Source: Thiohalocapsa sp. (GTDB lineage Bacteria; Pseudomonadota; Gammaproteobacteria; Chromatiales; Chromatiaceae). From it: a stretch of DNA of 64,000 bases. Shown piece after piece: positions 31,195 to 61,492 of this stretch. The notes under the pieces are model-generated. The model was not told the DNA's origin. It did not search any database and saw only the letters and a program-made list of their open reading frames with translations. Within the stretch, counting starts at the first letter, position 1, and each line of letters begins with the position of its first letter. The position numbers and the translations under genes were made by a program. The DNA is taken from contig JAIPFF010000018.1 of assembly GCA_021736785.1 (NCBI GenBank), forward strand, positions 1 through 64,000. The letters run 5' to 3'.

Positions 31195-34100
31195 CGGTTC
31201 ATCGCCGTATGCGCGGGGAACACCGCGTCGATGCAGACGACAAAGGCCGTTGTGATGGTTCATCCCCGCGGGCGCGGGGAACACCTCGTAGGATTCGGTG
31301 GAACGCGTTCCGATGCCGGTTCATCCCCGCGGGCGCGGGGAACACGGCCGAGTATCGCCGCGGCGGTAACTGTTTTGCGGTTCATCCCCGCGGGCGCGGG
31401 GAACACAGCCGTAGACCTGTTCCATGATAGTGCGCCTCCGGTTCATCCCCGCGGGCGCGGGGAACACGCCTGGTAAAGACCGATTGCAGTCGACAGTACC
31501 GGTTCATCCCCGCGGGCGCGGGGAACACGCAGCGAGCAGCCAGTTCTCGCGCGCCTGCAACGGTTCATCCCCGCGGGCGCGGGGAACACCGTAGCACGTG
31601 ACGGACGCGGCGACGGGATAGCGGTTCATCCCCGCGGGCGCGGGGAACACCTCGGCGCCGGCACCCCCCTCGAGCTATCCGGCGGTTCATCCCCGCGGGC
31701 GCGGGGAACACCAAGAGACGGCAAAATAGGCCCGGTCAGATACGCGGTTCATCCCCGCGGGCGCGGGGAACACTCGAGCAGGTCCACCGCAGCCTTGTTC
31801 CATGCCGGTTCATCCCCGCGGGCGCGGGGAACACGCGCCGGTGTCGCTCTCCGGCGGCATCGCCGACGGTTCATCCCCGCGGGCGCGGGGAACACTATCT
31901 CCGCCAACTTAGCCGTTATGCGGGTATCGGTTCATCCCCGCGGGCGCGGGGAACACGTACCGGACCTTCTCCGGGTCTGTTGTTGTTGCGGTTCATCCCC
32001 GCGGGCGCGGGGAACACGCGCCACCCTCCTGCATACGCATTGCGCATCGCGGTTCATCCCCGCGGGCGCGGGGAACACGGCCCGTCCATTCCGAGCCCTG
32101 ATCGCCCCAACGGTTCATCCCCGCGGGCGCGGGGAACACGGATTTGGTTGCGGTCATAGCGCGCGGACTGTCGGTTCATCCCCGCGGGCGCGGGGAACAC
32201 GACGCTCAGCCGCCGCAATCGCGTGGCGCAATCGGTTCATTCCCGCGGGCGCGGGGAACACATCGATCGCTGATTTTCGTTCGAGGTTCGATGCGGTTCA
32301 TCCCCGCGGGCGCGGGGAACACGATGAAAGGCGCTCGGCGTATGTATTGCGACACGGTTCATCCCCGCGGGCGCGGGGAACACACGTGCTCCGCGAGCTG
32401 CTGTCGTGCGGTGCCCGGTTCATCCCCGCGGGCGCGGGGAACACGGTCAGGGCGAGCGAGCGCGTCCGATTGCAGTCGGTTCATCCCCGCGGGCGCGGGG
32501 AACACCGTGGCCGCGTGCTGGGTAAGGTTGATGATTGCGGTTCATCCCCGCGGGCGCGGGGAACACGCCTGAAGACGTTGGCGCTCTTGGCGCTCGTGCG
32601 GTTCATCCCCGCGGGCGCGGGGAACACAAACCGCGAAATACCGCCCTCGTCATCGTCCACGGTTCATCCCCGCGGGCGCGGGGAACACTCAACAGCATCG
32701 TTTTCGGTCCGTCGATGTGGCGGTTCATCCCCGCGGGCGCGGGGAACACGCGGTGGTCGGCAGCTATGAAGTGGCGTGAACCGGTTCATCCCCGCGGGCG
32801 CGGGGAACACGTAGTCCGCGTCGTAGTGATCCGGGATCGGCCCGGTTCATCCCCGCGGGCGCGGGGAACACCTCTCGTTGCGCCTTCAACTGTTCAATGA
32901 TCGCGGTTCATCCCCGCGGGCGCGGGGAACACTGGAATCCGGCGAGGTCACAGCCGATCGGCTGCGGTTCATCCCCGCGGGCGCGGGGAACACGGTGATC
33001 GCGATCGATCCGGACTGACTCGCGGCGGTTCATCCCCGCGGGCGCGGGGAACACCCTTTTTCCGCTGTTTGCACGCTTGCGTCTTGCGGTTCATCCCCGC
33101 GGGCGCGGGGAACACACCCCCATGTAAGCCTTGATTTGTTTTGCAACCGGTTCATCCCCGCGGGCGCGGGGAACACAAACGAACCAATGTCCGCCTATGT
33201 TCACGTATCGGTTCATCCCCGCGGGCGCGGGGAACACCTGTCATCCAGTGTGTCGGGGGGCGTTGCCTGCGGTTCATCCCCGCGGGCGCGGGGAACACTT
33301 CGCCCGTGATCGCGCACCTAAGAATCCATGCGGTTCATCCCCGCGGGCGCGGGGAACACGAATCCAATCCGGTCCGAAGTCATCTTTGCAGCTGGTTCAT
33401 CCCCGCGGGCGCGGGGAACACGCCGCAAGAAAAGAGTCGCTGTCTTCCGCGATCGGTTCATCCCCGCGGGCGCGGGGAACACGAGCCAGCGCGCGCCAGC
33501 AGTGTTTTGGCCACCGGTTCATCCCCGCGGGCGCGGGGAACACTCTTTGGCCGCGAGCGCGGTAACGGCCGCGGTCGGTTCATCCCCGCGGGCGCGGGGA
33601 ACACATGTGTGGCAGTCGGCGGCAAGTATCGAGGGGCGGTTCATCCCCGCGGGCGCGGGGAACACGTAGTCGTAGCCGCCGAATTGGTTCCTCTTGCCGG
33701 TTCATCGCCGCGGGCGCGGGGAACACGCGGCTGGATGTCTCGCGAAACCGGGGAATGGCGGTTCATCCCCGCGGGCGCGGGGAACACTCCTTCGATCGAA
33801 TGGTGCGGTTCGATGATGCCGGTTCATCCCCGCGGGCGCGGGGAACACTCTCGGTGCCATCGCGACGCATGCAGGTATCCCGGTTCATCCCCGCGGGCGC
33901 GGGGAACACTGCGCTGGCGTCTATATCACGGGATGCATCCGCGGTTCATCCCCGCGGGCGCGGGGAACACGAGCGACGGGGCCGTGGCATGAAGCAAGTC
34001 ACCGGTTCATCCCCGCGGGCGCGGGGAACACCTCGCCCGGCGCCTGGAACACTTGCTCCCAGGCGGTTCATCCCCGCGGGCGCGGGGAACACGGGCGCGT

Positions 34101-35680
34101 GGAATTCGGCGAATGGTCCAAGTGCGGTTCATCCCCGCGGGCGCGGGGAACACACGGTCTTTCCGCTGGCCAGATATTCGGATGCCGGTTCATCCCCGCG
34201 GGCGCGGGGAACACGATTACCTGTCGGTCAGTCGTTGGTCCTCGGGCGGTTCATCCCCGCGGGCGCGGGGAACACCCATCAGATTTGCACCTCCCCGCCG
34301 AATGCTTCGGTTCATCCCCGCGGGCGCGGGGAACACGATCACCTGTCCTTGTCCTTCGGCTGCCGCTGCGGTTCATCCCCGCGGGCGCGGGGAACACCGC
34401 CCGCGGCCGCACTCGCGGAAGCGAAGGTGCGGTTCATCCCCGCGGGCGCGGGGAACACGGTGGCGCGCGGTACGGGCGAATGGTTGCCGTCGGTTCATCC
34501 CCGCGGGCGCGGGGAACACGATTTAACACCCGCAGCGCAGGCCGGGTTTTTCGGTTCATCCCCGCGGGCGCGGGGAACACAGAATTGCGCCGAGGCGCGC
34601 AATTCGTCGTGGTGGTTCATCCCCGCGGGCGCGGGGAACACGTCGGTGCTGCCGAGGGCGCTGTTGTCGCAGCCGGTTCATCCCCGCGGGCGCGGGGAAC
34701 ACGCCATCGCGGCATGCGCGCGGGATGAAATAGCCGGTTCATCCCCGCGGGCGCGGGGAACACCGCCATCGACGCGGCCATCCCGGTGACGACGACGGTT
34801 CATCCCCGCGGGCGCGGGGAACACCAAATAGGCGTTGTGCCGCTCGATTGCGGTCCGCGGTTCATCCCCGCGGGCGCGGGGAACACCTTTTGCCCGATCC
34901 GGGCAGCCCGGTATACGCCGGTTCATCCCCGCGGGCGCGGGGAACACGGCAAGCTCGATGCCGTTACTGGGCTGTCCGACGGTTCATCCCCGCGGGCGCG
35001 GGGAACACCCACCGCCACCGCGCCGCCCAGGCGTAACCGGCGGTTCATCCCCGCGGGCGCGGGGAACACCGTAGCCGCGTACAGCGATGATGCCGCGTCC
35101 GCGGTTCATCCCCGCGGGCGCGGGGAACACTGCGCATTTCCGCCGAGGCGGGATCTGTATTGCGGTTCATCCCCGCGGGCGCGGGGAACACTAGTGCGTC
35201 GGCACGAAAACGATTTGCCCCGCCGGTTCATCCCCGCGGGCGCGGGGAACACGCTGTCGAGATTGGCAGCGAGTGCAAGAATTGCGGTTCATCCCCGCGG
35301 GCGCGGGGAACACGCGCGTCCACCCATTCAAGCACCATTTCGCGGCCGGTTCATCCCCGCGGGCGCGGGGAACACACTTCTAGCGTTGATTCTCCCGCGT
35401 CCCAGAACGGTTCATCCCCGCGGGCGCGGGGAACACCGTCGACCATCGAAGCGTGCCATCCTCCATGACGGTTCATCCCCGCGGGCGCGGGGAACACTGA
35501 TAACGCAGCGTCAGCGAAAACGGCGTCGTCGGTTCATCCCCGCGGGCGCGGGGAACACCGGGCCGACTTGATCGCTGTTGACGGGAATATCGGTTCATCC
35601 CCGCGGGCGCGGGGAACACGGCGCTGATTTCACGTCTGCCGGCGAAGCCATCGGTTCATCCCCGCGGGCGCGGGGAACAC
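31195..35680 (-). CRISPR. type I-E CRISPR array, 74 repeats and 73 spacers
   Basis: The 29-nt repeat reads, on the plus strand, CGGTTCATCCCCGCGG followed by GCGCGGGGAACAC. This is the reverse complement of the usual I-E orientation, so crRNAs (handle AUGAACCG) come from the minus strand, with the leader at the right. I located 74 repeats: 69 spacers are 32 nt and four are 33 nt (before the repeats at 31745, 33393, 34858 and 35347). The leftmost repeat (31195-31223) has four changes, as expected at the leader-distal end; single changes occur at 32233 and 33698. The repeat base next to the spacer is G in crRNA sense in all but three repeats (31256, 33393, 34613), where it is A. Confidence 0.99.
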
Positions 35681-35773: not shown

Positions 35774-36965
<1,192 letters not shown>

Positions 36966-37094: not shown

Positions 37095-37787
37095 TTACCC
37101 GGCGCGCTTAATAAGCATCAATCCGCATCCGAAGCCCTTTGCATGGCCGAGTCCGTTATGAAGAGATGAGACAAAGCGCTCCACATCCACTACTCTTAGT
37201 ACGCCCTGGTAGTCGAGCGTGCTGAATTGGATCGCTTGGCGCTGCCCGCGTTTAACTAGCCGGTGTTGGCAATAGTTGTCCACTTGGAGTGTCTCCAGAG
37301 CGAAACCGTTGGTGGCTGCGCGCTCTTCAAGCCAACGCGGCCCCGCGTTCTGTACCAGCTGCGACTGGCTGGAGCGTTTTGTGGGATTCGCCTCCGCCGC
37401 TTGCTCCTGACGCTTCGCATGCATGATCACGTCGTCGCGGTAGCGACGCTTATCATCCGGATCATCGCTTGCTTTGCGTGTGCGAACAGGGTTGGCCCGA
37501 AGTACGAAGCTTAGTCGCTGCCCCTCCGCCAACTTGGGTGCAAACGGCTTCGTCTGCACGGTCCAAGCGCCGTCCAACGTGGACGGTTCGCGCGGGGATA
37601 GCAAATAAAACACAGGCCAGTGGCCAAGTTGCTCGCGGCGAAACAAGAAGTCGCGAGGCTGCTCCGCGTTCGAAGCCATTAAGCGCCAGATGGCTTGGTG
37701 CTCAGCGTACGCGTTCTGAAAAATCGCATTTGCGAGGATTGCCGGTGGTTGTTCCCTGGCCAACTCGACCTTGCTCAAATACCACAT
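37095..37787 (-). CDS. cas6e: Cas6e (CasE/Cse3) crRNA endoribonuclease
   Basis: Cleaves the pre-crRNA at the base of each repeat hairpin and stays bound as the Cascade head. It has 230 residues, with the N-terminal YAEHQAIWRL carrying the likely catalytic His and the C-terminal glycine-rich loop HNGLGHAKGFGCGLMLI. It starts 2 bp after the cas5e stop. Confidence 0.95.
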   Translation of the reverse strand: MWYLSKVELAREQPPAILANAIFQNAYAEHQAIWRLMASNAEQPRDFLFRREQLGHWPVFYLLSPREPSTLDGAWTVQTKPFAPKLAEGQRLSFVLRANPVRTRKASDDPDDKRRYRDDVIMHAKRQEQAAEANPTKRSSQSQLVQNAGPRWLEERAATNGFALETLQVDNYCQHRLVKRGQRQAIQFSTLDYQGVLRVVDVERFVSSLHNGLGHAKGFGCGLMLIKRAG

Positions 37788-37789
37788 AC

Positions 37790-38539
37790 TCAGTCCCCTT
37801 CGCTGGCGGAATAGTGTTCGGTTCGCGGTGCAAACTGCCGGCGTGTTCTGGACATTGGCTGGTCGTGCCTAGGAATCGACCGCGAGGGGCGCAATCCTGC
37901 CGGGACGCCGTCTTCCCAATAGATCCCTCGTTCGCGTGCTAGCCGAGCAAGACCAAGTTCATCTAAAAAAGCTGCGCGTCCGTTGCCTGCATCCGTCTCA
38001 TCGTAGTGGGCGATTGCGGCCACGACGGTGTGCGCCTCGATAAGGCGTGGCGATAATGGGAATGCGGTGGGGCAGGATCTACGACCGAGGTAAGGGGCGA
38101 AGGTCGGTTTGAGCAGCGATGAGACGATGGTTTCCGCGGTCGCCCTGCTGTCGCGCATACGTTCATGCAGACATACAGTGTACAGACCGTCAGTGCGATA
38201 ATCTCGAGTTGAAAGCGACGCTATACGATTGTGGGGATCAAGCAGTTCGTCTCTGCGTGTGTGCAAGTGCTTGAGCCGGGAAACGCTCTTCGGGTACTGG
38301 CTCGTGTGATAGTCCCGCAACGGTACGCCGCCGGACTGCACTCGGACGGCGAACCCAAGGCTGTCGCGTAGCGCTTCATGAGCGTCGTCATCGGACCGCC
38401 GTATCCCTAATGCGGCAGCAACCAACCCCAATACAGCGGATTTGGATGGATGCGTCGCTGTCGGCCGTTGCTCGCCGACGGCAATGTCGCCCCAAGCCGC
38501 CAGCGGGCCGTAGAGTCTAAATACGATAAATCGTTCCAT
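37790..38539 (-). CDS. cas5e: Cas5e (CasD) Cascade subunit
   Basis: Binds the 5' handle of the crRNA in Cascade. FIVFRLYGPLAAWGDIAVGEQR then PTATHPSKSAVLGLVAAALG are typical of Cas5e. I use ATG 38539 (MERFIVF), which matches relatives; a TTG at 38548 that overlaps the cas7e stop is also possible. The protein is about 249 residues. Confidence 0.95.
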   Translation of the reverse strand: MERFIVFRLYGPLAAWGDIAVGEQRPTATHPSKSAVLGLVAAALGIRRSDDDAHEALRDSLGFAVRVQSGGVPLRDYHTSQYPKSVSRLKHLHTRRDELLDPHNRIASLSTRDYRTDGLYTVCLHERMRDSRATAETIVSSLLKPTFAPYLGRRSCPTAFPLSPRLIEAHTVVAAIAHYDETDAGNGRAAFLDELGLARLARERGIYWEDGVPAGLRPSRSIPRHDQPMSRTRRQFAPRTEHYSASEGD

Positions 38540-38544
38540 CGCCG

Positions 38545-39582
38545 TCAATCCGTAATGAATGCGATCAGCTTTCGCAACGTTCCGGAGCCGTTGACGGCAT
38601 CCATGATGCAGTGGTCATCGCTGCAGGCGCCATAGGCTGCATCCATCTTAGAGCGGGTGTCGGTGAGCCGCTCGATGGCTTCCGGCAGCATTCCGTGCCG
38701 GCCGTCGACTGACTTCAGAAAGGCAACCGACAGTGACCGCGGCTGCTGGTCGCCCTTTTCGGCCAAGATGTACGAGGCCCTTGCGCGAGAGGCGAAGCTG
38801 TTCTGTTTGCCGGTGGGGGCCACGGTAGCGGCGGCTTCGGTAAGAGCTGCAAGCGCTTTGTCCCGCAGGGAAAGATCGTTGCCGAGATTGTCCGCCAGGG
38901 ATTCCCGGTCTATACAAAGGTAGAGATAGAAGAGTCCGGCAGCGAACTCGGTCTCGCCCATGTGCCCTGCGCCGACGTCTTCGATGCCCTCGTTCAGGTC
39001 GTCGACGGCGGTAAAGAAATCGTCCTCGACTGCAACTTTGTGCACCGTCACGGCGTGAGCCACTTGGGCCGCAGCGTCGGTATTGTAGCTGGGCGCTGCG
39101 GCTAGCATTCGCCCGAACAGGGCGATGTCCACGGCGCGGTGCTGGTGGCGCAGCAGGTTGAGCTCGTCTTCCGTCGGCGCTGATTTCCGCTCGATGAGTT
39201 GGTCTACCAAGGTATTGATCGCACTCAGTTCTTCCGGGCTGAAGTGAGCGAGTTGCTCGATCTCCACTGAGCCGGATTTCAGCTTACCGAACCGCTTCGC
39301 AATGGCGCCGGCCCATTCTGCTGCCTGCTTCTCGGAGACACCGGCAGCCAGAAGACGTTGCTGAATTCGTGTGCCTTCCTCCTTGGTACGTGTGCCGATG
39401 TGGCCGTCGAGTGCTGATTTGAAGCTGTCGGATGTGCGCCAAGCCCTTTTTAGGCTTTGAGAGGAGATCCGAAGTCTCTTTTCGCCTCCCATAACCGCGG
39501 TCTTGGGCCGACCGAGATCGTCCCTATTAAGATTCGCTGGCGGATAGGATGTCAACAGGTGTAGTTGGATAAAACGGGTCAT
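38545..39582 (-). CDS. cas7e: Cas7e (CasC/Cse4) Cascade backbone subunit
   Basis: Six copies of this 345-residue protein form the crRNA-binding backbone; its thumb flips out every sixth base of the guide. MTRFIQLHLLTSYPPANLNR and DDLGRPKTAVMGGEKRLRIS are diagnostic. It starts 2 bp after cse2. Confidence 0.96.
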   Translation of the reverse strand: MTRFIQLHLLTSYPPANLNRDDLGRPKTAVMGGEKRLRISSQSLKRAWRTSDSFKSALDGHIGTRTKEEGTRIQQRLLAAGVSEKQAAEWAGAIAKRFGKLKSGSVEIEQLAHFSPEELSAINTLVDQLIERKSAPTEDELNLLRHQHRAVDIALFGRMLAAAPSYNTDAAAQVAHAVTVHKVAVEDDFFTAVDDLNEGIEDVGAGHMGETEFAAGLFYLYLCIDRESLADNLGNDLSLRDKALAALTEAAATVAPTGKQNSFASRARASYILAEKGDQQPRSLSVAFLKSVDGRHGMLPEAIERLTDTRSKMDAAYGACSDDHCIMDAVNGSGTLRKLIAFITD

Positions 39583-39584
39583 GA

Positions 39585-40202
39585 TCAGGCTCCTTTTGCT
39601 CTGTCAAAGTTCTCGTGTTCCAGCAGCGCGCTATAGTAGTGGAATGTCCATTCCCGCCGAGGATGCCGCGGCAAATGCTCCCACGAAGGGTGGTCCCATT
39701 TGCGGATGCTATCGATAAGGTCTCGCACCGGCACACGGTCACCGGCAAGATGAATGATCCGAAGCAAGGCTGGATAAAGGTCATCGAGCTTTCGGATCTC
39801 CGCGAAACGCTGAAAGCGCAATTCGCTGACTCTGGGGCCGAAGCCGGGCTTTGTCGGCTTGGCCAGAAAAGCGCCAACGGAACGGGGGTCTTCGATGTCG
39901 CCCTTGACATGCGCCAACAGGCCGGCAACAGCAGCGATGCTGATGCGGTCGCTCCAGCCGGTGGGGCGAAGACGATAATGAAGCCGATGGTAGGCAGGCA
40001 CGAATAAGACTTCTTCGAGAGTTTTGCAACGTCGCAACTCTGCGAGCTCTCCCCGGTTGCTAGGCTTGCCGGGCTCCGGCGGTGCGATCAATCTGTTCCA
40101 CCATTTGTACGTCTCCCCCACGTGGTCTGGTTGGTTCTTGTTAGAGGCGGGCGGTTCCATCAGGTGCTCCTTGATCGTAGGATCAGCGTATTGGTCTGTC
40201 AT
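39585..40202 (-). CDS. cse2: Cse2 (CasB) Cascade small subunit
   Basis: Small alpha-helical subunit that stabilises the displaced DNA strand in Cascade. ETYKWWNRLIAPPEPGKPS and VPAYHRLHYRLRPTGWSDR fit the family; 205 residues from ATG 40202, which has GGTGA five bases upstream. GTG 40211 is an alternative start. Confidence 0.92.
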   Translation of the reverse strand: MTDQYADPTIKEHLMEPPASNKNQPDHVGETYKWWNRLIAPPEPGKPSNRGELAELRRCKTLEEVLFVPAYHRLHYRLRPTGWSDRISIAAVAGLLAHVKGDIEDPRSVGAFLAKPTKPGFGPRVSELRFQRFAEIRKLDDLYPALLRIIHLAGDRVPVRDLIDSIRKWDHPSWEHLPRHPRREWTFHYYSALLEHENFDRAKGA

Positions 40203-40236
40203 CTGCTTCACCGGAAAGCCGCTTTGATTCGAAAAT

Positions 40237-41874
40237 TTACGCAGCCGCCGGAGGACTAGAAATGGCCCTGTCGGGTATCTCTAGTAAATCTTTGATCTTC
40301 TTGCTGTAATTGTATCGCAGCAGCGCGCGTCTGGCTTGCGCGATGCGGCGAGGATTGGATTGTTCGGTAATTTGGTTGTAGTCCACCCAGCGGTCGTAGG
40401 CTTTCTGGGTGTGCTCGTTCAGATACCGGTGCCATAGATGGCGCGCGGCGGTACTCGCTGCAGTGGTATCGGCGGCGCCCGCGATCGCGTTTATTCGCTC
40501 GTAAAATACCGCTTCGGTTTCCTGCCAGAAAGCGTCTTTCACGTGTTCCAGCTTCGCTGACTTGTGGCGCGGGTCATTTGTAGCGAACCAAGCATCCTTA
40601 ATGGCGCTGCGTAGATTGTAGAGAAATAACCCTGCTGCGTTCACCATGTCCTCGGCGGCGCTTTCCAGCGTGGTGCGGTGAATATCGCTGTAAACGCTGA
40701 ATAACGGCAATGTCGACTCGAACCAGCACCTTGGTTTCATATTGTCCATGTCGTAGCCGAACGCCCACAGGCGATATCGTAAGCCCTCTCGGTTCAGCCG
40801 ATGGGCATGAAACCGTTTGACGACGGCCGCTGGAAGGCGCTTGGCTTTTTTGTCACTCGTTTCCTGCATGAGACTTAACCAATGGCGATAGTTGATGCTA
40901 CCGCGAGGGTGCATCGGGATTAAGTCTTTTCCGTCGTGGGTGTAGGGGCTCAACGTGTGTGACCAGGCGCCGGTGTAGTTGATGCCATAGTTTTTAGTGC
41001 GATAACGGGAGATCAATGTGCATGAATGCGCGCCGGTAATCGCGCATTCACCACCGGGTTCGGACTGGTCTAGGTCAAGCCGGATGCGGCGGGGCATGCC
41101 CCAGAACATCTGCAGCGGGTGCGCCGCTTCGGGCGTCGTAGGGTTCGCGCCTTTCTCGCTGGTCCGCGTCGGAGCGAGCCATGGAAAGATGCGTGCGGCA
41201 TCGGATGGCTTGGTGGGGAATCCCAGCGTTTCTAGGGTTTCTTCATCGAGGACATTTAACCAGAGCGTTTGCCAGAGCGTCGGTGGCCGCCGCTCGTCCT
41301 CGGGTGTTGCGATCACGAGCGTCGTCAGCGGTCCGCCGCCACGCAGGGAAGTCCGGTGCCCGACACCGCCTGACGGTGCATTGGTTTGTAAGGTGTAGAG
41401 GGCCATGGCAGCCGCCGCTAGGCTCATGCCCTGAGCGGGAAGGTCTTTCACAAAATGCGTCTCGCTGCCGGCGGTATCGATGAGCAACGCGGTGATCGGC
41501 AGAGGGGCTTGGCCCGATAACGGATCCTGATCTTGCATGAACCGTGGCCCGTCGCCGTCTAAGTCGAAGGCGTGCGCGTAAGCTGAAAATGCGTCTTGAA
41601 GCACCTCCGGGGTCGGCGCTGTGGCAAAGCGCTCGAACCATTCATCCGGGTCGCGGGGAGCAAATGCGGTCTGCAATAGACCGATCAGGAACTGCACCAG
41701 TGCGCCGTTGAAGTCAGGTCGCGGCGCGTCCAACGCTACGATTGGATTGGTGTCGATGGCGTCGGTTATTTGCCAGGGAGCGATGTTTTGCTGCTCTTTG
41801 GCCGGCGATAACCGCCGAATCGGGATCCATGGGGATGTCAGAAGGTTATGCGGCATGATCCTGTCCATGGTCAA
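40237..41874 (-). CDS. cse1: Cse1 (Cas8e/CasA) Cascade large subunit
   Basis: Recognises the PAM and recruits Cas3. The 545-residue protein shows HNLLTSPWIPIRR at the N terminus, FLIGLLQTAFAPRDPDEW and SGGVGHRTSLRGGGPLTTLV, all Cse1-like. TTG 41874 is used because AGGAG lies six bases upstream; ATGs at 41868 and 41853 are in-frame alternatives. It overlaps a small coiled-coil frame by 29 bp, suggesting that both belong to one transcript whose promoter lies around 42060-42170. Confidence 0.94.
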   Translation of the reverse strand: MTMDRIMPHNLLTSPWIPIRRLSPAKEQQNIAPWQITDAIDTNPIVALDAPRPDFNGALVQFLIGLLQTAFAPRDPDEWFERFATAPTPEVLQDAFSAYAHAFDLDGDGPRFMQDQDPLSGQAPLPITALLIDTAGSETHFVKDLPAQGMSLAAAAMALYTLQTNAPSGGVGHRTSLRGGGPLTTLVIATPEDERRPPTLWQTLWLNVLDEETLETLGFPTKPSDAARIFPWLAPTRTSEKGANPTTPEAAHPLQMFWGMPRRIRLDLDQSEPGGECAITGAHSCTLISRYRTKNYGINYTGAWSHTLSPYTHDGKDLIPMHPRGSINYRHWLSLMQETSDKKAKRLPAAVVKRFHAHRLNREGLRYRLWAFGYDMDNMKPRCWFESTLPLFSVYSDIHRTTLESAAEDMVNAAGLFLYNLRSAIKDAWFATNDPRHKSAKLEHVKDAFWQETEAVFYERINAIAGAADTTAASTAARHLWHRYLNEHTQKAYDRWVDYNQITEQSNPRRIAQARRALLRYNYSKKIKDLLEIPDRAISSPPAAA

Positions 41875-42058
41875 GGGTGTCTCCTAGCGGCAATCCGTCG
41901 TGGAACGGGTCGGCTTGCATCTCCAACTCCCTCACACGTTCTCGGAGGGCGACCAACTCGTTGCGTTCCTCCCGGCGAAGCTCGGTTAGTTCGCTGAGGG
42001 TTATTTGGAGGGATTCTATTTTCTGCAGAATTTGATCTGTTCGTTTCGGTGTCGGCAT
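41846..42058 (-). CDS. small coiled-coil protein upstream of cse1
   Basis: ATG 42058 opens 70 codons (MPTPKRTDQILQKIESLQIT, then LSELTELRREERNELVALR) with a clear heptad pattern over about residues 10-45 and an acidic His-rich tail. It is not a known cas gene. Its 3' end overlaps the cse1 start by 29 bp, so it is probably the first gene of the Cascade operon, translated just before cse1. No good ribosome site is seen. It could be an accessory Cascade factor, a leader peptide for cse1 translation, or non-functional. The guide-RNA match lies 54-88 bp upstream of its start. Confidence 0.5.
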   Translation of the reverse strand: MPTPKRTDQILQKIESLQITLSELTELRREERNELVALRERVRELEMQADPFHDGLPLGDTLDHGQDHAA

Positions 42059-42111
42059 TACGCTGTGCCTGTTGCTGTACCGGTATGCCAACGGTAGCGC
42101 TGTTCGGCGCG

Positions 42112-42146
42112 TGGGGAAAGTGGCCACCGACTGATGTAGAAAGCTT
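42112..42146 (-). promoter_or_regulatory. partial protospacer with AAG PAM upstream of the Cascade operon
   Basis: On the minus strand, AAG (42146-42144) is followed by CTTTCTACATCAGTCGGTGG (42143-42124). Against the guide at 42238-42269 this matches 16 of the first 20 positions, with mismatches at 6, 10, 11 and 18 and no useful match beyond 20. The seed (1-5, 7, 8) is perfect. The site lies in the likely promoter zone of the coiled-coil/cse1 operon. Confidence 0.75.
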
Positions 42147-42208
42147 TGCTATTCCTGCCGGGGCCGGTCAGCTCGAACGGTGCATTTGCCTTCGAGTGGT
42201 AGACTGCA

Positions 42209-42298
42209 AGCGTCCTGCAGCCTTGCGGGATGAACCGCTTTCGACACTAGTCGGCGGAACGCAGCTAACACGTTCCCCGCTGCTGCGGGGTAACAGGA
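42209..42298 (+). ncRNA. crRNA-like guide RNA between cas3 and cse1 (candidate Cas-regulating RNA)
   Basis: A degenerate repeat at 42209-42237 ends in GCGGGATGAACCG, keeping the exact 8-nt crRNA handle ATGAACCG and a 7-bp hairpin (TCCTGCA/TGCGGGA, loop GCCT). A second at 42270-42298 keeps GTTCCCCGC-TGCT-GCGGGG, a 6-bp stem, but has lost the handle sequence at its end. Exactly 32 nt lie between them, starting CTTTCGACACTAGTCGGCGG. The sense strand is plus, opposite to the array and cas genes. An extended -10-like TGGTAGACT at 42197-42205 could start transcription right at the first hairpin. Cas6e could process it and Cascade could carry it to 42112-42146. The structure is read directly; the function is inferred from known crRNA-like repressors of cas or toxin promoters. 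Confidence 0.75.
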
Positions 42299-42327: not shown

Positions 42328-45042
42328 CTAGTCTTCGCGGATCCTCATTAGTCCAGTCATCGCGTCGTAGCAGAAGCATGTCGCACGGCCGCGAGCATCG
42401 ATGCCTTCGCCGACCCATGAATCGCCCTCCGCAGGCCGTAGCGGCAAGAGTCGACTCCAGCGGCCCTTGTCGTAGACGGTTTCGAGGTAGTCGGAGATCG
42501 CTTGCCGGAGAGCCGGATCGGCGGGCTCCGCATCCGTGGCGAACCACGTCGCGCGGATCGTGACTTCGCTCATGGCCCATTCGAAATCTTCCTTTGAGCA
42601 CCAAGGGGTCAACTTGCCGTCCTGCCAGCGCGCAAGACGAAGCCGTATGCTGGGATCGCCGAGTCTCGTTGGCGCGAGGATGTCGTCCCAAAAGTCCATG
42701 TCGGCGGCGTAGCCCTGCTCCAATGTCAGCGCATTGAAGCGCGCCATCGACTTGTCGTTCATCGAAGCGGCATCGGCGTCGGTGCTGGCCATTTCGATGT
42801 CGGTCGGTGCAGGTTGCGCCCTGTCGCCATAGACGCCTTCGATCAAGGGACGGGCACCCTCGGGCATGCAAATCGCTCCGTGCTCTCGGAGTAGTCGGGC
42901 CGTCCGCCAGAGGCAGCGAAGGTCCGGGTAGACCTTTCCGGTCTTGGGCAGCAGTGGTCCGAGCCAGTCTGCGTCCGCGTCCTCGGTGGGGTCCGGAGTC
43001 AGCACATGCAGGCACGGGGGCGAGCGGCGCTCTTGGTCTCGGCGCGCACCGGAGCGGTCCCGATGGTGGCGCTGCAGCCTGCCGGCCCGTTGGATGATTA
43101 GATCCATCGGCGCCAAGTCGGTGACCATGACATCGAAATCCAAATCGAGAGATTGCTCGACCACTTGAGTTGCGATCAGAAGCCGACCCTGCCGTTGTTC
43201 GAGGCCGCTGGTCGGTCCGAAATTGGTCAGCACGCGTTCCTCGATTCGTAGCCGGTCGCCCAAGGCGAAGCGCGCATGAAACAGGTCGATCTTGTCCACC
43301 GGCACGTCGGCGGCTCGGAGCGCGCGCCATGCGGTGATGGCATCGTCGACGGTGTTGCGGACCCAGCACGCGCATTGGCCCTGTCGATGCGCATTCAGCA
43401 GGATGCCGATTGCTGCCGATTCCTCGCTGATTTGCTGGACGTCGACGCAACGAGCGATTTCCGGGCGGGCTGTAAGCGGGCATTCTTCCAGTCCGTTGCT
43501 ATGGACCCGGGTCAGCATCGGGTAAGCATCGCTGGCTACGGCAGACGGTTCGGCCGAAAGCCCATTGCGGAACGCATTGATCAGCGCTTGGCGCATCGAC
43601 TTGGGTAGGGTCGCCGAGAGCAGAATTGCATGCCCGCCGATGTAGGCCTGAAAGCGCAGCAAGGTCGCGAGGAGTGTTTGCATATATGCATCGTATGCGT
43701 GCACCTCGTCGACGATCAGTACCTTGCGCGCCAACCCCAGCAGCCTCAGGGATTGGTGCCGACTGGGCAGAACGCCCAGCAAGGCTTGGTCGATATTGCC
43801 CACGCCCAGGTCCGCCAGCAGCGCCTTCTTTCTGTGATCGCCGAGCCAAGCTGCGCGAAGGTTGGCGGCGCTCGGCTCGCCGGCGGTGTAGTCGCCCTCT
43901 CGCGGGGCTTGCGGAAGCACTGCTTCTCGCGCTTCGGATTTCTTCATTAGCCGAGCCGCCGCATGGGTCAGCACAACGGCGGGCTCGCCCGCAAATAAGC
44001 GCTCGTGTAACCCCTGGTCGACGATACGCCGGTGCATTGCATTCGACGTCGCCATGGTGGGCAGTCCGAGGTAGATGCCGTCAGCTGCTCCGGTCATCTG
44101 GACACGATGCGCCAAGGTGAAGGCTGCCTCAGTCTTGCCGGAGCCGGTGATGTCTTCGAGGATGAAGAGCTGCGGGGAACTTGAGACTGGGATGTCCGCG
44201 GCAAGTTTCTGCAACGGCGTTGGTGTTTTGAGGTATCCGAACAGCTCTCGTTGACTCCGCGGAGATGCCGCGAGCGGCACCACGCCGCTCATCTCGATAG
44301 CCCGCCGAGCCCCTGGCAGCGCGTAGTCGCGCCAGTAGACGTCAATTGGCATATCGTGGGAGACGAGGCGGAATATCTCGGCATTCGAGCCGAGCCAATC
44401 GCATAACACCGCGACGCCGGCCAGCCACCAAGACAGACGCTTGAGCGTATGTTCTAGTGCCTTGGCGTCGTTGATTTCCAGCTGAACGCCGTCGAGGATC
44501 AGTTCCCCGGCGTCATTGCAGAACGCCGCGGCTGCGTGTTGATCGTCGGGCGTGAACTGGTCAGTGATCGGTCGCCCGTTCGGTGTGGCTGGCGGCTGCC
44601 CATGATGCCCCACGGCGGTGCCGATCCATGCACTCAGCGCCCGCCGCGTCGCTCTGCTCGTTGACGTCTCCGACACGAACTTCTTCAGAACGGACTCTTC
44701 CAGTACCTCGTACCAGAGCAGCAAGCCAAGGCTGTCGTGTCGCGGATGGTAGCGTTTGGCATCGGCGGGACTCTTTGCCAGGAACGGAAAATCCGGCCTC
44801 AGATTTTGGAATCGGTGGCCGAACTTGCCCCCGTCATGCAGTGCGAGCATGAAGGCTATCCAGCGCATAAGGGTCGTTTCGTCGAGGCCTAGGCGTGCCG
44901 CAAGCTCCTTCCTTAACGCGGTGTGGCGCTCAAGGAAGATCCAGCCGCATGCCGCCACATCAAGGGAATGATAGGGCAGCAGATGGAACGCTCCGTCATT
45001 GCCCGCTTTGCCCCAGTAACGGAAATACTGCTTTCCCATCAT
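42328..45042 (-). CDS. cas3: Cas3 helicase-nuclease, type I-E
   Basis: Unwinds and degrades DNA recruited by Cascade. The N-terminal HD nuclease has YHSLDVAACG and LALHDGGKFGHRF; the SF2 helicase has Walker A DITGSGKTEAAF, LIVDEVHAYDAYM, SATLPKSMR and the motif VI region IQRAGRLQRHHR. About 904 residues from ATG 45042, with GGAG ten bases upstream; ATG 45081 would add 13 unlikely residues. It is separated from the rest of the cas operon by the guide-RNA locus, so it is transcribed from its own promoter. Confidence 0.96.
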   Translation of the reverse strand: MMGKQYFRYWGKAGNDGAFHLLPYHSLDVAACGWIFLERHTALRKELAARLGLDETTLMRWIAFMLALHDGGKFGHRFQNLRPDFPFLAKSPADAKRYHPRHDSLGLLLWYEVLEESVLKKFVSETSTSRATRRALSAWIGTAVGHHGQPPATPNGRPITDQFTPDDQHAAAAFCNDAGELILDGVQLEINDAKALEHTLKRLSWWLAGVAVLCDWLGSNAEIFRLVSHDMPIDVYWRDYALPGARRAIEMSGVVPLAASPRSQRELFGYLKTPTPLQKLAADIPVSSSPQLFILEDITGSGKTEAAFTLAHRVQMTGAADGIYLGLPTMATSNAMHRRIVDQGLHERLFAGEPAVVLTHAAARLMKKSEAREAVLPQAPREGDYTAGEPSAANLRAAWLGDHRKKALLADLGVGNIDQALLGVLPSRHQSLRLLGLARKVLIVDEVHAYDAYMQTLLATLLRFQAYIGGHAILLSATLPKSMRQALINAFRNGLSAEPSAVASDAYPMLTRVHSNGLEECPLTARPEIARCVDVQQISEESAAIGILLNAHRQGQCACWVRNTVDDAITAWRALRAADVPVDKIDLFHARFALGDRLRIEERVLTNFGPTSGLEQRQGRLLIATQVVEQSLDLDFDVMVTDLAPMDLIIQRAGRLQRHHRDRSGARRDQERRSPPCLHVLTPDPTEDADADWLGPLLPKTGKVYPDLRCLWRTARLLREHGAICMPEGARPLIEGVYGDRAQPAPTDIEMASTDADAASMNDKSMARFNALTLEQGYAADMDFWDDILAPTRLGDPSIRLRLARWQDGKLTPWCSKEDFEWAMSEVTIRATWFATDAEPADPALRQAISDYLETVYDKGRWSRLLPLRPAEGDSWVGEGIDARGRATCFCYDAMTGLMRIRED

Positions 45043-45389
45043 CTCGATCTTTCTCCCTGCCTGACCTCGATTGCAACACATAAAATGTACGCGGGGCGAG
45101 TATGGGATTTCCCCATGAGCTCGGCCAAGAGCAGCAGATTATGGCGGATGTGCTGACTCAAACGGTGATGCCGTGTCGGCGCTGGATTCGGCAGTACTGC
45201 ACCTGTTAGTGCGATTCGTGCACGACGTTACGCGCAAATGGCGCGTGTACGCAAGCCGGAGACAATCGGATGGTTAAAGCCCTAAGAGGGCGCTTGGAAA
45301 GGCCGGAGTGCGGAATTTCGTGGAGTTGCAGTCTGGCCTAGCTCTAAGTTTCTGAAAACAAATCGCGATTCCACGGGATGGCGGAAGAG
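45043..45389. other. 347-bp region upstream of cas3
   Basis: Holds the cas3 promoter and the end of the opposite cassette. No gene is seen. A short inverted pair ATGGG/CCCAT lies at about 45102-45116. I looked for a second match to the guide-RNA seed here and found none with a suitable PAM. Confidence 0.5.
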
Positions 45390-58610: not shown

Positions 58611-58752
58611 GGCGAAAGCCGAGCGGCCTGTTGCGGGGCTGGCTATCGCTCGCCCCATCTCCTGTCATCGACCCGCGGCTTACTGCCGCCGGGCATCGGC
58701 GCCTCTGTCTTGTGGGTGCCGCCGATTCCTGTCTGGCCAGGATACTGATTTC

Positions 58753-58794
58753 GGCTACCGGCTACCGGCTACCGGCTACCGGCTACCGGCTACC
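58753..58794 (+). repeat. six tandem GGCTACC heptamers
   Basis: Six uninterrupted copies of the 7-bp unit in the dnaJ-typA intergenic region; a likely slippage-prone simple repeat. Confidence 0.9.
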
Positions 58795-59115
58795 GGCGCG
58801 GCGAGTCATGCGTCGCGGATGCCCCGGCCGGTTTGCGGCGCGCCCGATTGCCCGCTGGGCGGCGCTGCAAACCGTCGGTCGCTCCGACGTTTCGGACAGT
58901 TGACAAATGCGCCCTCGGACATTCTCGGTGCGCGCTTTTCAACATGCTGCACGGGCCGGCGCCGTAACCTTATCCGATGTGCATGTATTTGCAGTCTTTT
59001 CCTGTCAAGAGCTGTAAAAACAGTCACTTATCGCATTGGCTAAAAATGCGCCAATCTGTTGCAGCGGCTGTCTTTTCGGGAGGTTAGGACGCTTCTCAAA
59101 GTCTTCTCAACAAAG

Positions 59116-59407: not shown

Positions 59408-61243
59408 ATGTCCGCCGTGATCGAGAACCTTCGCAATATCGCCATCATCGCCCACGTCGATCATGGCAAGACGACCTTGGTCGACAAACTCCTGCAGCAG
59501 TCGGGCACGCTGGGGGACCGGTTCGGGCCCGTCGAGCGGGTCATGGACTCCAACGATCTGGAGAAGGAGCGGGGTATCACCATCCTCTCCAAGAATACCG
59601 CCCTGCGCCTTACGCTGAACGACCAGGACTACCGCATCAACATCGTCGACACCCCGGGCCATGCCGATTTCGGCGGTGAGGTGGAGCGCGTGCTCTCGAT
59701 GGTCGACTCGGTGCTGCTGCTGGTGGATGCCCAGGAAGGACCCATGCCGCAGACGCGCTTCGTCACCAGCAAGGCCTTCGCGCATGGGCTGCGCCCGATC
59801 GTGGTCGTCAACAAGATCGACAAGCCCGGAGCGCGTCCGGACTGGGTCATCGACCAAGTGTTCGACTTGTTCGACCGCCTGGGTGCCACCGACGAGCAGC
59901 TCGACTTCCCGATCGTCTACGCCTCCGCCATCAATGGCTACGCCGGGCTCGAGGACGACGTGCGCGACGGCGACATGACACCGCTGTTCGAGGCCATCGT
60001 CGAGCACTGCCCGGCGCCCGACGTGGATCCGGAAGGCACATTCCAGATGCAGGTCTCGACCCTGGATTACAGCTCCTTCGTCGGCGCCATCGCCGTAGGC
60101 CGCATCCAGCGCGGCAGCGTAAGGCCGAACCAGCAGGTGGTCGTGCTCAAGCGCGACGGTAACCGGCATAAGGCCAAGATCGGGCTCGTCTACGGCTACA
60201 TGGGTCTGGTCCGCAGCGAAGTAGCCAGCGCCAACGCGGGCGATATCGTCGCCCTGACCGGCATCGACGCACCGAACGTGTCGGACACCTTGTGCGATCC
60301 GGAGATGGTCGAGCCATTGCCGCCGCTCAATGTGGACGAGCCGACGGTGACCATGACCTTCCAGGTGAACACCTCGCCTTTCGCCGGCCGCGAAGGCAAG
60401 TATCTGACCTCGCGCCAGCTCAAGGACCGGCTCGAGCGCGAGCTGATCCACAACGTCGCGCTGCGGGTGGAAGAGGGCAACGACCCCGAGAAGTTCCGCG
60501 TCTCCGGCCGCGGCGAGCTGCACCTGTCCATCCTGCTCGAAAACATGCGCCGCGAGGGCTACGAGCTGGCGGTGTCGCGGCCCGAGGTGATCTTCCGCGA
60601 GATCGACGGGGTCATTTGCGAGCCCTACGAGCAGTTGACCGTGGACGTCGACGAAACCAGCCAGGGTGCCATCATGCAGGCCCTCGGCGAGCGCCGGGGC
60701 GATCTCAAGGACATGGTGCCGGACGGCAAGGGCCGGGTGCGCCTGGACTACGAGATCCCCTCCCGCGGCCTGATCGGCTTCCAGACCGAGTTCATGTCGA
60801 TGACCTCGGGCACCGGACTGAAGTATCACGTCTTCGACCACTACGGACCCGCCAACGCCGCCGGCATTGCACCGCGACGCAACGGTGCGATGATCTCCAA
60901 CGCCCAGGGCAAAGCGCTTGGCTACGCGCTATTCAATTTGCAGGATCGCGGCCGCATGCTGGTGGGGCATGGAGACGAGGTCTACGAGGGCCAAGTGGTC
61001 GGCATCCACTCCCGCGACAACGACCTGACGGTCAACCCGCTGAAGGCCAAGCAGTTGACCAACATCCGCGCCGCGGGCTCGGACGAGAACATCCTGCTGA
61101 CACCCCCCATCCGCTTCTCTCTGGAGCAGGCGCTGGAGTTCATCGAAGACGACGAGCTGGTGGAGATCACGCCCGCCGCCATTCGCATCCGCAAGCGCTT
61201 CCTGAAGGAGCACGAGCGCAAGCGGGCGGGACGCAGCAAGTAG
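59408..61243 (+). CDS. typA: ribosome-associated GTPase TypA/BipA
   Basis: Translational GTPase that acts in stress and ribosome assembly. G1 is [16 protein letters not shown], switch I is [13 protein letters not shown]3 is [13 protein letters not shown]4 is [14 protein letters not shown]-like domains follow, and the C-terminal domain includes [20 protein letters not shown]. It has 611 residues. Downstream lies a 15-bp minisatellite. Confidence 0.97.
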
Positions 61244-61269
61244 ATACTGCCCCGATGATCGCGGCGCTC

Positions 61270-61404
61270 CTGATGCCGGCGCCCGTGATCCGGGCGCCGC
61301 TCATTCCGGCACCCCTCATTCCGGCACCCCTCATTCCGGCACCCCTGATACCGGCACCCCTGATACCGGCACCCCTGATACCGGCACCCCTGATACCGAC
61401 TCAG
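61270..61404 (+). repeat. 15-bp minisatellite after typA (nine units)
   Basis: Nine head-to-tail units: two diverged (CTGATGCCGGCGCCC, GTGATCCGGGCGCCG), three CTCATTCCGGCACCC, three CTGATACCGGCACCC and a partial last one. The two unit types occur in blocks, which points to recent expansion. It begins 26 bp after the typA stop and would encode PAPLI repeats if read through. Confidence 0.9.
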
Positions 61405-61492
61405 GGCCATCGCAGTCGGGATATGCTGTGCGGCTACCGTCCGAAAAGACCCGGCCGCGAGAATCCGTGGCGGCCGTTCCTTGCGACGGCCG

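Follow-up and report, generated by a model that had tools for sequence, protein, structure and literature searches.

The type I-E CRISPR-Cas locus of this Thiohalocapsa-like member of the Chromatiaceae raises the question of why a single spacer lies between two degenerate repeats beside the cas genes, outside the main array, and of what its guide is directed to. Cas-regulating RNAs (CreR) are known from type I-B, I-E and V-A systems, and CreR autorepression in type I-E has been published (Liu et al. 2023, Cell Host Microbe 31:1481; doi 10.1016/j.chom.2023.08.005), according to the available portions of PMC13131331, in which that work is cited, and of PMC12737573. A first-pass annotation of the window, that is, of the whole stretch of 64,000 nucleotides analysed here, had proposed that Cascade could limit its own synthesis through this guide. 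That proposal stands as the best reading of the locus: pairing, PAM, seed, tolerance at positions 6, 12 and 18, and location recur in 21 further loci, and repression is what they would imply. It is highly likely that the mini-CRISPR encodes a CreR that steers the cell's own Cascade to a site upstream of its own operon and represses it.

The locus and its mini-CRISPR

The window carries a complete type I-E locus on its minus strand (Table 1), and the nearest named relatives of its cse1 belong to Chromatiaceae and Thiohalocapsa. The main array comprises 73 repeats at 31256-35680, each within 3 mismatches of the consensus, followed at the far end by an extra degenerate repeat at about 31196-31223; in crRNA sense (minus strand) the main repeat reads GTGTTCCCCGCGCCCGCGGGGATGAACCG, as in relatives. 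Other repetitive stretches of the window are a run of head-to-tail 15-bp units (GCACCCCTGATACCG-like) at 61234-61413 and a short tandem array at 58752-58800, in which the 7-bp unit CGGCTAC is repeated head to tail.

Table 1. Features of the type I-E locus, its mini-CRISPR and the target site in the window
Feature	Coordinates	Strand	Remarks
Main CRISPR array	31196..35680	minus (crRNA sense)	73 repeats and one degenerate end repeat
Putative cas2	35774..36076	minus	ORF only, assigned by position after cas1
cas1e	36054..36965	minus	TIGR03638
cas6e/casE	37095..37787	minus	TIGR01907; expected processor of the mini-CRISPR transcript
cas5/casD	37790..38548	minus	TIGR01868
cas7/casC	38545..39582	minus	TIGR01869
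cse2/casB	39585..40211	minus	TIGR02548
cse1/casA	40237..41856	minus	TIGR02547, E 1.2e-95; start (ATG 41856) set by MPxNLL of relatives
Small ORF	41846..42058	minus	Start ATG 42058; first frame past the site; 70 aa, coiled-coil-like
Candidate Cascade-operon promoter, TTTCCC-17-TACCGT	42091..42119	minus	Position relative to that in L007; predicted start about 42084
Target site	42112..42146	minus	PAM AAG 42146-42144; matched part 42143-42124; 32-bp protospacer to 42112
Candidate extended -10 of the mini-CRISPR, TGGTAGACT	42197..42205	plus	Motif and position only; predicted start about 42212
psiR1, degenerate first repeat, AGCGTCCTGCAGCCTTGCGGGATGAACCG	42209..42237	plus	Repeats compared in crRNA sense
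Guide (spacer), 32 nt, CTTTCGACACTAGTCGGCGG then AACGCAGCTAAC	42238..42269	plus	First 20 nt pair with 42124-42143
psiR2, degenerate second repeat, ACGTTCCCCGCTGCTGCGGGGTAACAGGA	42270..42298	plus	Perfect CCCCGC/GCGGGG stem
cas3	42328..45081	minus	NF007248/TIGR01587/TIGR01596; end about 30 bp beyond psiR2, facing the mini-CRISPR

The gap between cas3 and cse1 measures 453 bp and holds the mini-CRISPR, whose anatomy can be read directly: on the plus strand, divergent from the Cascade operon, a degenerate repeat is followed by a 32-nt guide and a second degenerate repeat. The first of them, psiR1, retains a stem and, unchanged, the last 8 nt of the main repeat (ATGAACCG), which form the 5' handle, and a -10-like hexamer is found 8-16 nt ahead of psiR1 in many related loci. 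The fold predicted for the lone mini-CRISPR RNA pairs psiR1 with the sequence after psiR2. Because psiR1 is strongly degenerate and engaged in this predicted fold, processing by Cas6e is not assured. The element was also considered as a canonical immune spacer, with perfect repeats and a match throughout, and was rejected as such, its repeats being degenerate and its match absent past position 20.

The guide and its target site

Read on the minus strand from 42146 to 42112, the site consists of AAG, then CTTTCTACATCAGTCGGTGG, then CCACTTTCCCCA. The first-pass annotation had placed a 5'-AAG PAM on this strand, which is seen directly at 42146-42144, and had claimed a match at 16 of the first 20 guide positions with a perfect seed (1-5, 7 and 8), which comparison position by position confirms: positions 1-5, 7-9, 12-17, 19 and 20 match, and 6, 10, 11 and 18 do not. 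As it had also stated, the match ends at position 20, with positions 21-32 unmatched. Its view of positions 10 and 11 as real mismatches holds for 10, but not fully for 11, where the guide U lies opposite a target-strand G and a G-U pair is possible, so that position 10 is the sole plain mismatch outside the flipped positions discussed below. The distance of 54-88 bp from the site to the first cse1-side reading frame, counted from the ATG, was given correctly, as was the binomial chance of near 4e-7 per position for such a match.

Shuffled guides gave a full seed with at least 16/20 at PAM-flanked sites of the gap in none of 20,000 trials, at any gap site irrespective of PAM in 1 of 20,000, and at PAM-flanked sites anywhere in the 64 kb in none of 1,500. 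In a smaller whole-window run scored by seed plus total, the best of 300 shuffles reached 24 against the observed 23, which is a rare chance hit in 64 kb. The best match among the 72 main-array spacers tested was 12/20. No place in the 5.2-Mb genome other than the target site matches AAGCTTTCNACANNAGTCGG exactly, and looser matches to the guide pattern are no commoner there than those to a reversed control pattern.

Recurrence across type I-E loci

Comparison across loci supplies the decisive evidence. For 56 cse1 relatives (loci numbered with the prefix L), the upstream sequence was searched for the end of a repeat with a guide after it. The handle pattern brought out the mini-CRISPRs of relatives; ungapped repeat scoring missed the window's own degenerate repeats. 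Such elements lie upstream of cse1 in many relatives, usually divergent from it and with guides mostly unrelated in sequence, and in the first set the guides of 16/16 relatives match a PAM-flanked site upstream of their own cse1. Two later genome draws under the same handle rule contributed seven more loci where a mini-CRISPR, both of its repeats recognisable, lies ahead of cse1. Of these, six fit (L066, L067, L068, L088, L091 and L106); in L073 the mini-CRISPR, about 222 bases upstream of cse1, has near-perfect repeats and a seed-matching site preceded by AAA, not AAG. At least 21 systems besides the window thus combine a mini-CRISPR guide with a site of their own (the six just named and L007, L010, L012, L016, L032, L034, L037, L041, L042, L043, L044, L048, L050, L052 and L061). 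L045 repeats L043 and was not counted separately; the two have one common guide, and their sites agree at positions 1-15 and then diverge. Over positions 1-17 without 6 and 12, own guide-site pairs average 13.1/15 against 8.3/15 for foreign pairs, in a comparison that includes L013 and near-duplicates, and guide and site are directly seen to co-vary.

The guides fall into two length classes, of about 32 nt (the window, L010, L012, L016 and L067) and of about 19-22 nt (most others), with those of L037 and L042 near 26 nt. L052 has two sites for one guide, 23 bp apart, at about 462 and 439 bases ahead of cse1; both are 16/20 and both lie behind AAG.

A mismatch profile was compiled from 21 non-redundant systems, including the window and five loci of a later draw, with L013 and L073 set aside before counting. 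It used uniform weights and demanded no PAM, which avoids the bias of a score that ignores positions 6 and 12. The top site is nevertheless preceded by AAG in 19 of these 21 systems and by ATG in the other 2; in the weaker systems L037 and L041, as well as in L052 and L091, another site equals it in raw count, and the reported one has both PAM and seed. Mismatches fall at position 6 in 15/21 systems, at position 12 in 11/21 and at position 18 in 18/21, and at the remaining positions 1-17 in 35/315 (Fisher 1.5e-12 for positions 6 and 12 against these). Positions 6, 12 and 18 are 70% mismatched, against 0-17% in the other phases. In type I-E systems Cascade flips one guide base in six out of the R-loop, so that positions 6, 12 and 18 need not pair. 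The observed 6-nt periodicity is what Cascade would impose, and it would not be expected from a decaying spacer or a chance match.

Ordinary array spacers near cse1, taken as negative controls (L039, L049, L056 and L112), have no such site. L011 has the repeats with an altered handle, and four guide registers tried gave no PAM-flanked site; L013 has a similar mini-CRISPR and no convincing site, the best being 13/20 with AAC. These two elements may be decaying or acting elsewhere. The same-genus loci L003/L004 and L008/L009 are without both the mini-CRISPR and the small ORF described below, and their cas3 and cse1 are close together. The mini-CRISPR is therefore dispensable, and these relatives offer no close pair for a footprint; mini-CRISPR and small ORF may be gained or lost as a unit, as one whole insert.

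Position of the site relative to the candidate promoter

The first-pass annotation had described the site as part of the likely promoter of the Cascade operon. The sequence of the window does not by itself reveal such a promoter; what supports one is position relative to a clear promoter in L007, the closest relative with the element. A consensus promoter scan of the cas3-cse1 gap found no match, and the window's best weight-matrix candidate scores 4.1 against 5.4 +/- 2.5 for shuffles; because the motif scores no better than shuffles, the assignment is one of position, not of motif. The promoter of L007, TTGACA-17-TAGGCT, is clearly of the sigma-70 type (11.5 against 6.0 +/- 1.9 for shuffles) and is overlapped by the distal end of the site, with a predicted footprint from -61 to -27. 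In the window, where site and candidate promoter are spaced as in L007, the predicted footprint runs from -62 to -28. Elsewhere among the loci the site can be on one strand or the other, and most of the sites are close to predicted promoter elements or cover them.

The small ORF ahead of cse1

Both in the window and in L007 the small ORF overlaps the start of cse1 by 11 nt, and it is therefore regarded as part of the Cascade operon. Relatives of it precede cse1 in L007, L010, L012, L032 and, less clearly, L013, and most have a common C-terminal stretch (ADxxHDGxPxxDTL-like); among the loci seen, they occur only before cse1, and only where a mini-CRISPR is present as well. Comparison with protein families, PADLOC and the PDB gave no convincing match, only weak coiled-coil hits, and no relatives were found in plasmids. 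Profile searches of genome draws of 93 and 398 recovered the window's copy only, and the ORF therefore appears rare and tied to one branch of loci.

In the Gilliamella loci L043, L044, L045, L048, L050, L052 and L061, the interval from the CreR site to cse1 holds another kind of small ORF, about 255 to 70 bases ahead of cse1, which encodes about 52-76 aa and has an IEIK...RSY-LS-EINK-like stretch. L016 also has another, different small ORF ahead of cse1.

The small coiled-coil protein could be a dedicated part of the loop, either a modulator of Cascade or a toxin as in CrePA, which would make the system a CreR/CrePA hybrid; this is unlikely.

Proposed mechanism and rival explanations

We infer a CreR loop of transcription, processing, binding, repression and sensing, which would operate as follows. 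The mini-CRISPR would be transcribed divergently from the Cascade operon, and Cas6e would cut both degenerate repeats, so that the small RNA could be loaded into the cell's own Cascade. The complex would recognise the AAG and form a partial R-loop that spans the first 17-20 bp, with positions 6, 12 and 18 tolerated. Bound at about -62 to -28 of the predicted operon start, Cascade would block RNA polymerase and so repress the unit small ORF-cse1-cse2-cas7-cas5-cas6. Because the match between guide and site is incomplete, Cas3 should spare the chromosome. The loop may sense free Cascade: spare Cascade would load CreR and bring about repression, and the operon would be derepressed when crRNAs are plentiful or when an anti-CRISPR takes Cascade out of play.

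It could be argued that the element is a CreTA- or CrePA-like module, in which the guide represses the promoter of a toxin encoded by the small ORF (or its RNA) that is freed when Cascade fails, and does not serve to tune the cas operon. CreTA and CrePA share the guide logic; a small ORF follows the site as the first gene both in the window and in relatives, and in other lineages (Gilliamella, L016) its place is taken by different small ORFs. The overlap with cse1, however, puts the ORF in the Cascade operon in both the window and L007, its product has no convincing match to known families, and L041 has guide and site with no ORF of at least 30 aa between the site and cse1; a toxin module is accordingly judged improbable.

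Still less probable is a remnant of an ordinary array, that is, a functionless, decaying spacer that had been taken up from the cas region of the host itself, as the degenerate psiR1 and the incomplete match might suggest. Decay would not place mismatches at 6, 12 and 18, leave each system with an AAG or ATG, or make guide and site co-vary across 22 loci, and the unmatched positions 21-32 are to be seen beside the many relatives whose guides are only about 20-22 nt long. A chance resemblance of the guide to the cas upstream region, the least credible of these explanations, has in its favour that about 0.2% of shuffled guides reach 16/20 by chance at some PAM-flanked site in the 64 kb. Against it stand the absence of any such shuffle within the gap, the uniqueness of the site in the genome and the recurrence of the pattern in 21 other loci; the comparison across loci already refutes it.

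Repression of the Cascade operon by its own CreR thus very probably extends to purple sulfur bacteria. The evolutionary signature is unusually clean, combining the co-change of guide and site with mismatches at every sixth, Cascade-flipped base, and it could serve to find such regulators by sequence alone. A small unnamed gene is now placed at the head of the operon that would be regulated, and this gene, together with the comparative signature, is potentially useful to specialists.

Comparison with known systems

Among described systems outside CreR, a likeness is seen to the CreA of CreTA, which has degenerate repeats psiR1 and psiR2, the first being the more degenerate, and a PAM with seed complementarity that skips position 6, as in the window (PMC8501985, PMC9458426); CreA requires seed positions 1-5 and 7-11 (PMC8501985). 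It represses a toxin RNA, whereas the unit controlled in the window would be the Cascade operon, in which no toxin has been identified. The CreA of CrePA likewise directs Cascade to repress a gene adjoining cas, as described in the available portions of PMC13131331 and PMC12737573, where the system depends on a protein toxin; the small ORF of the window bears no sign of being one by its sequence. SpyCas9 autorepression shares the principle that an effector limits its own expression, but belongs to type II, with an unrelated RNA and architecture, as far as the accessible text of PMC13131331 describes it. CreR itself agrees with the window in its mini-CRISPR beside the cas genes, its type I-E effector and a guide that is partly complementary, on its seed side, to sequence upstream of cas. 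It differs in that the window's element is known from sequence alone, and in that the available portions of PMC13131331 and PMC12737573 mention, for CreR, no small protein gene preceding cse1. The element of the window is thus very probably a new example of the already described class CreR, to which the first-pass annotation had not assigned it.
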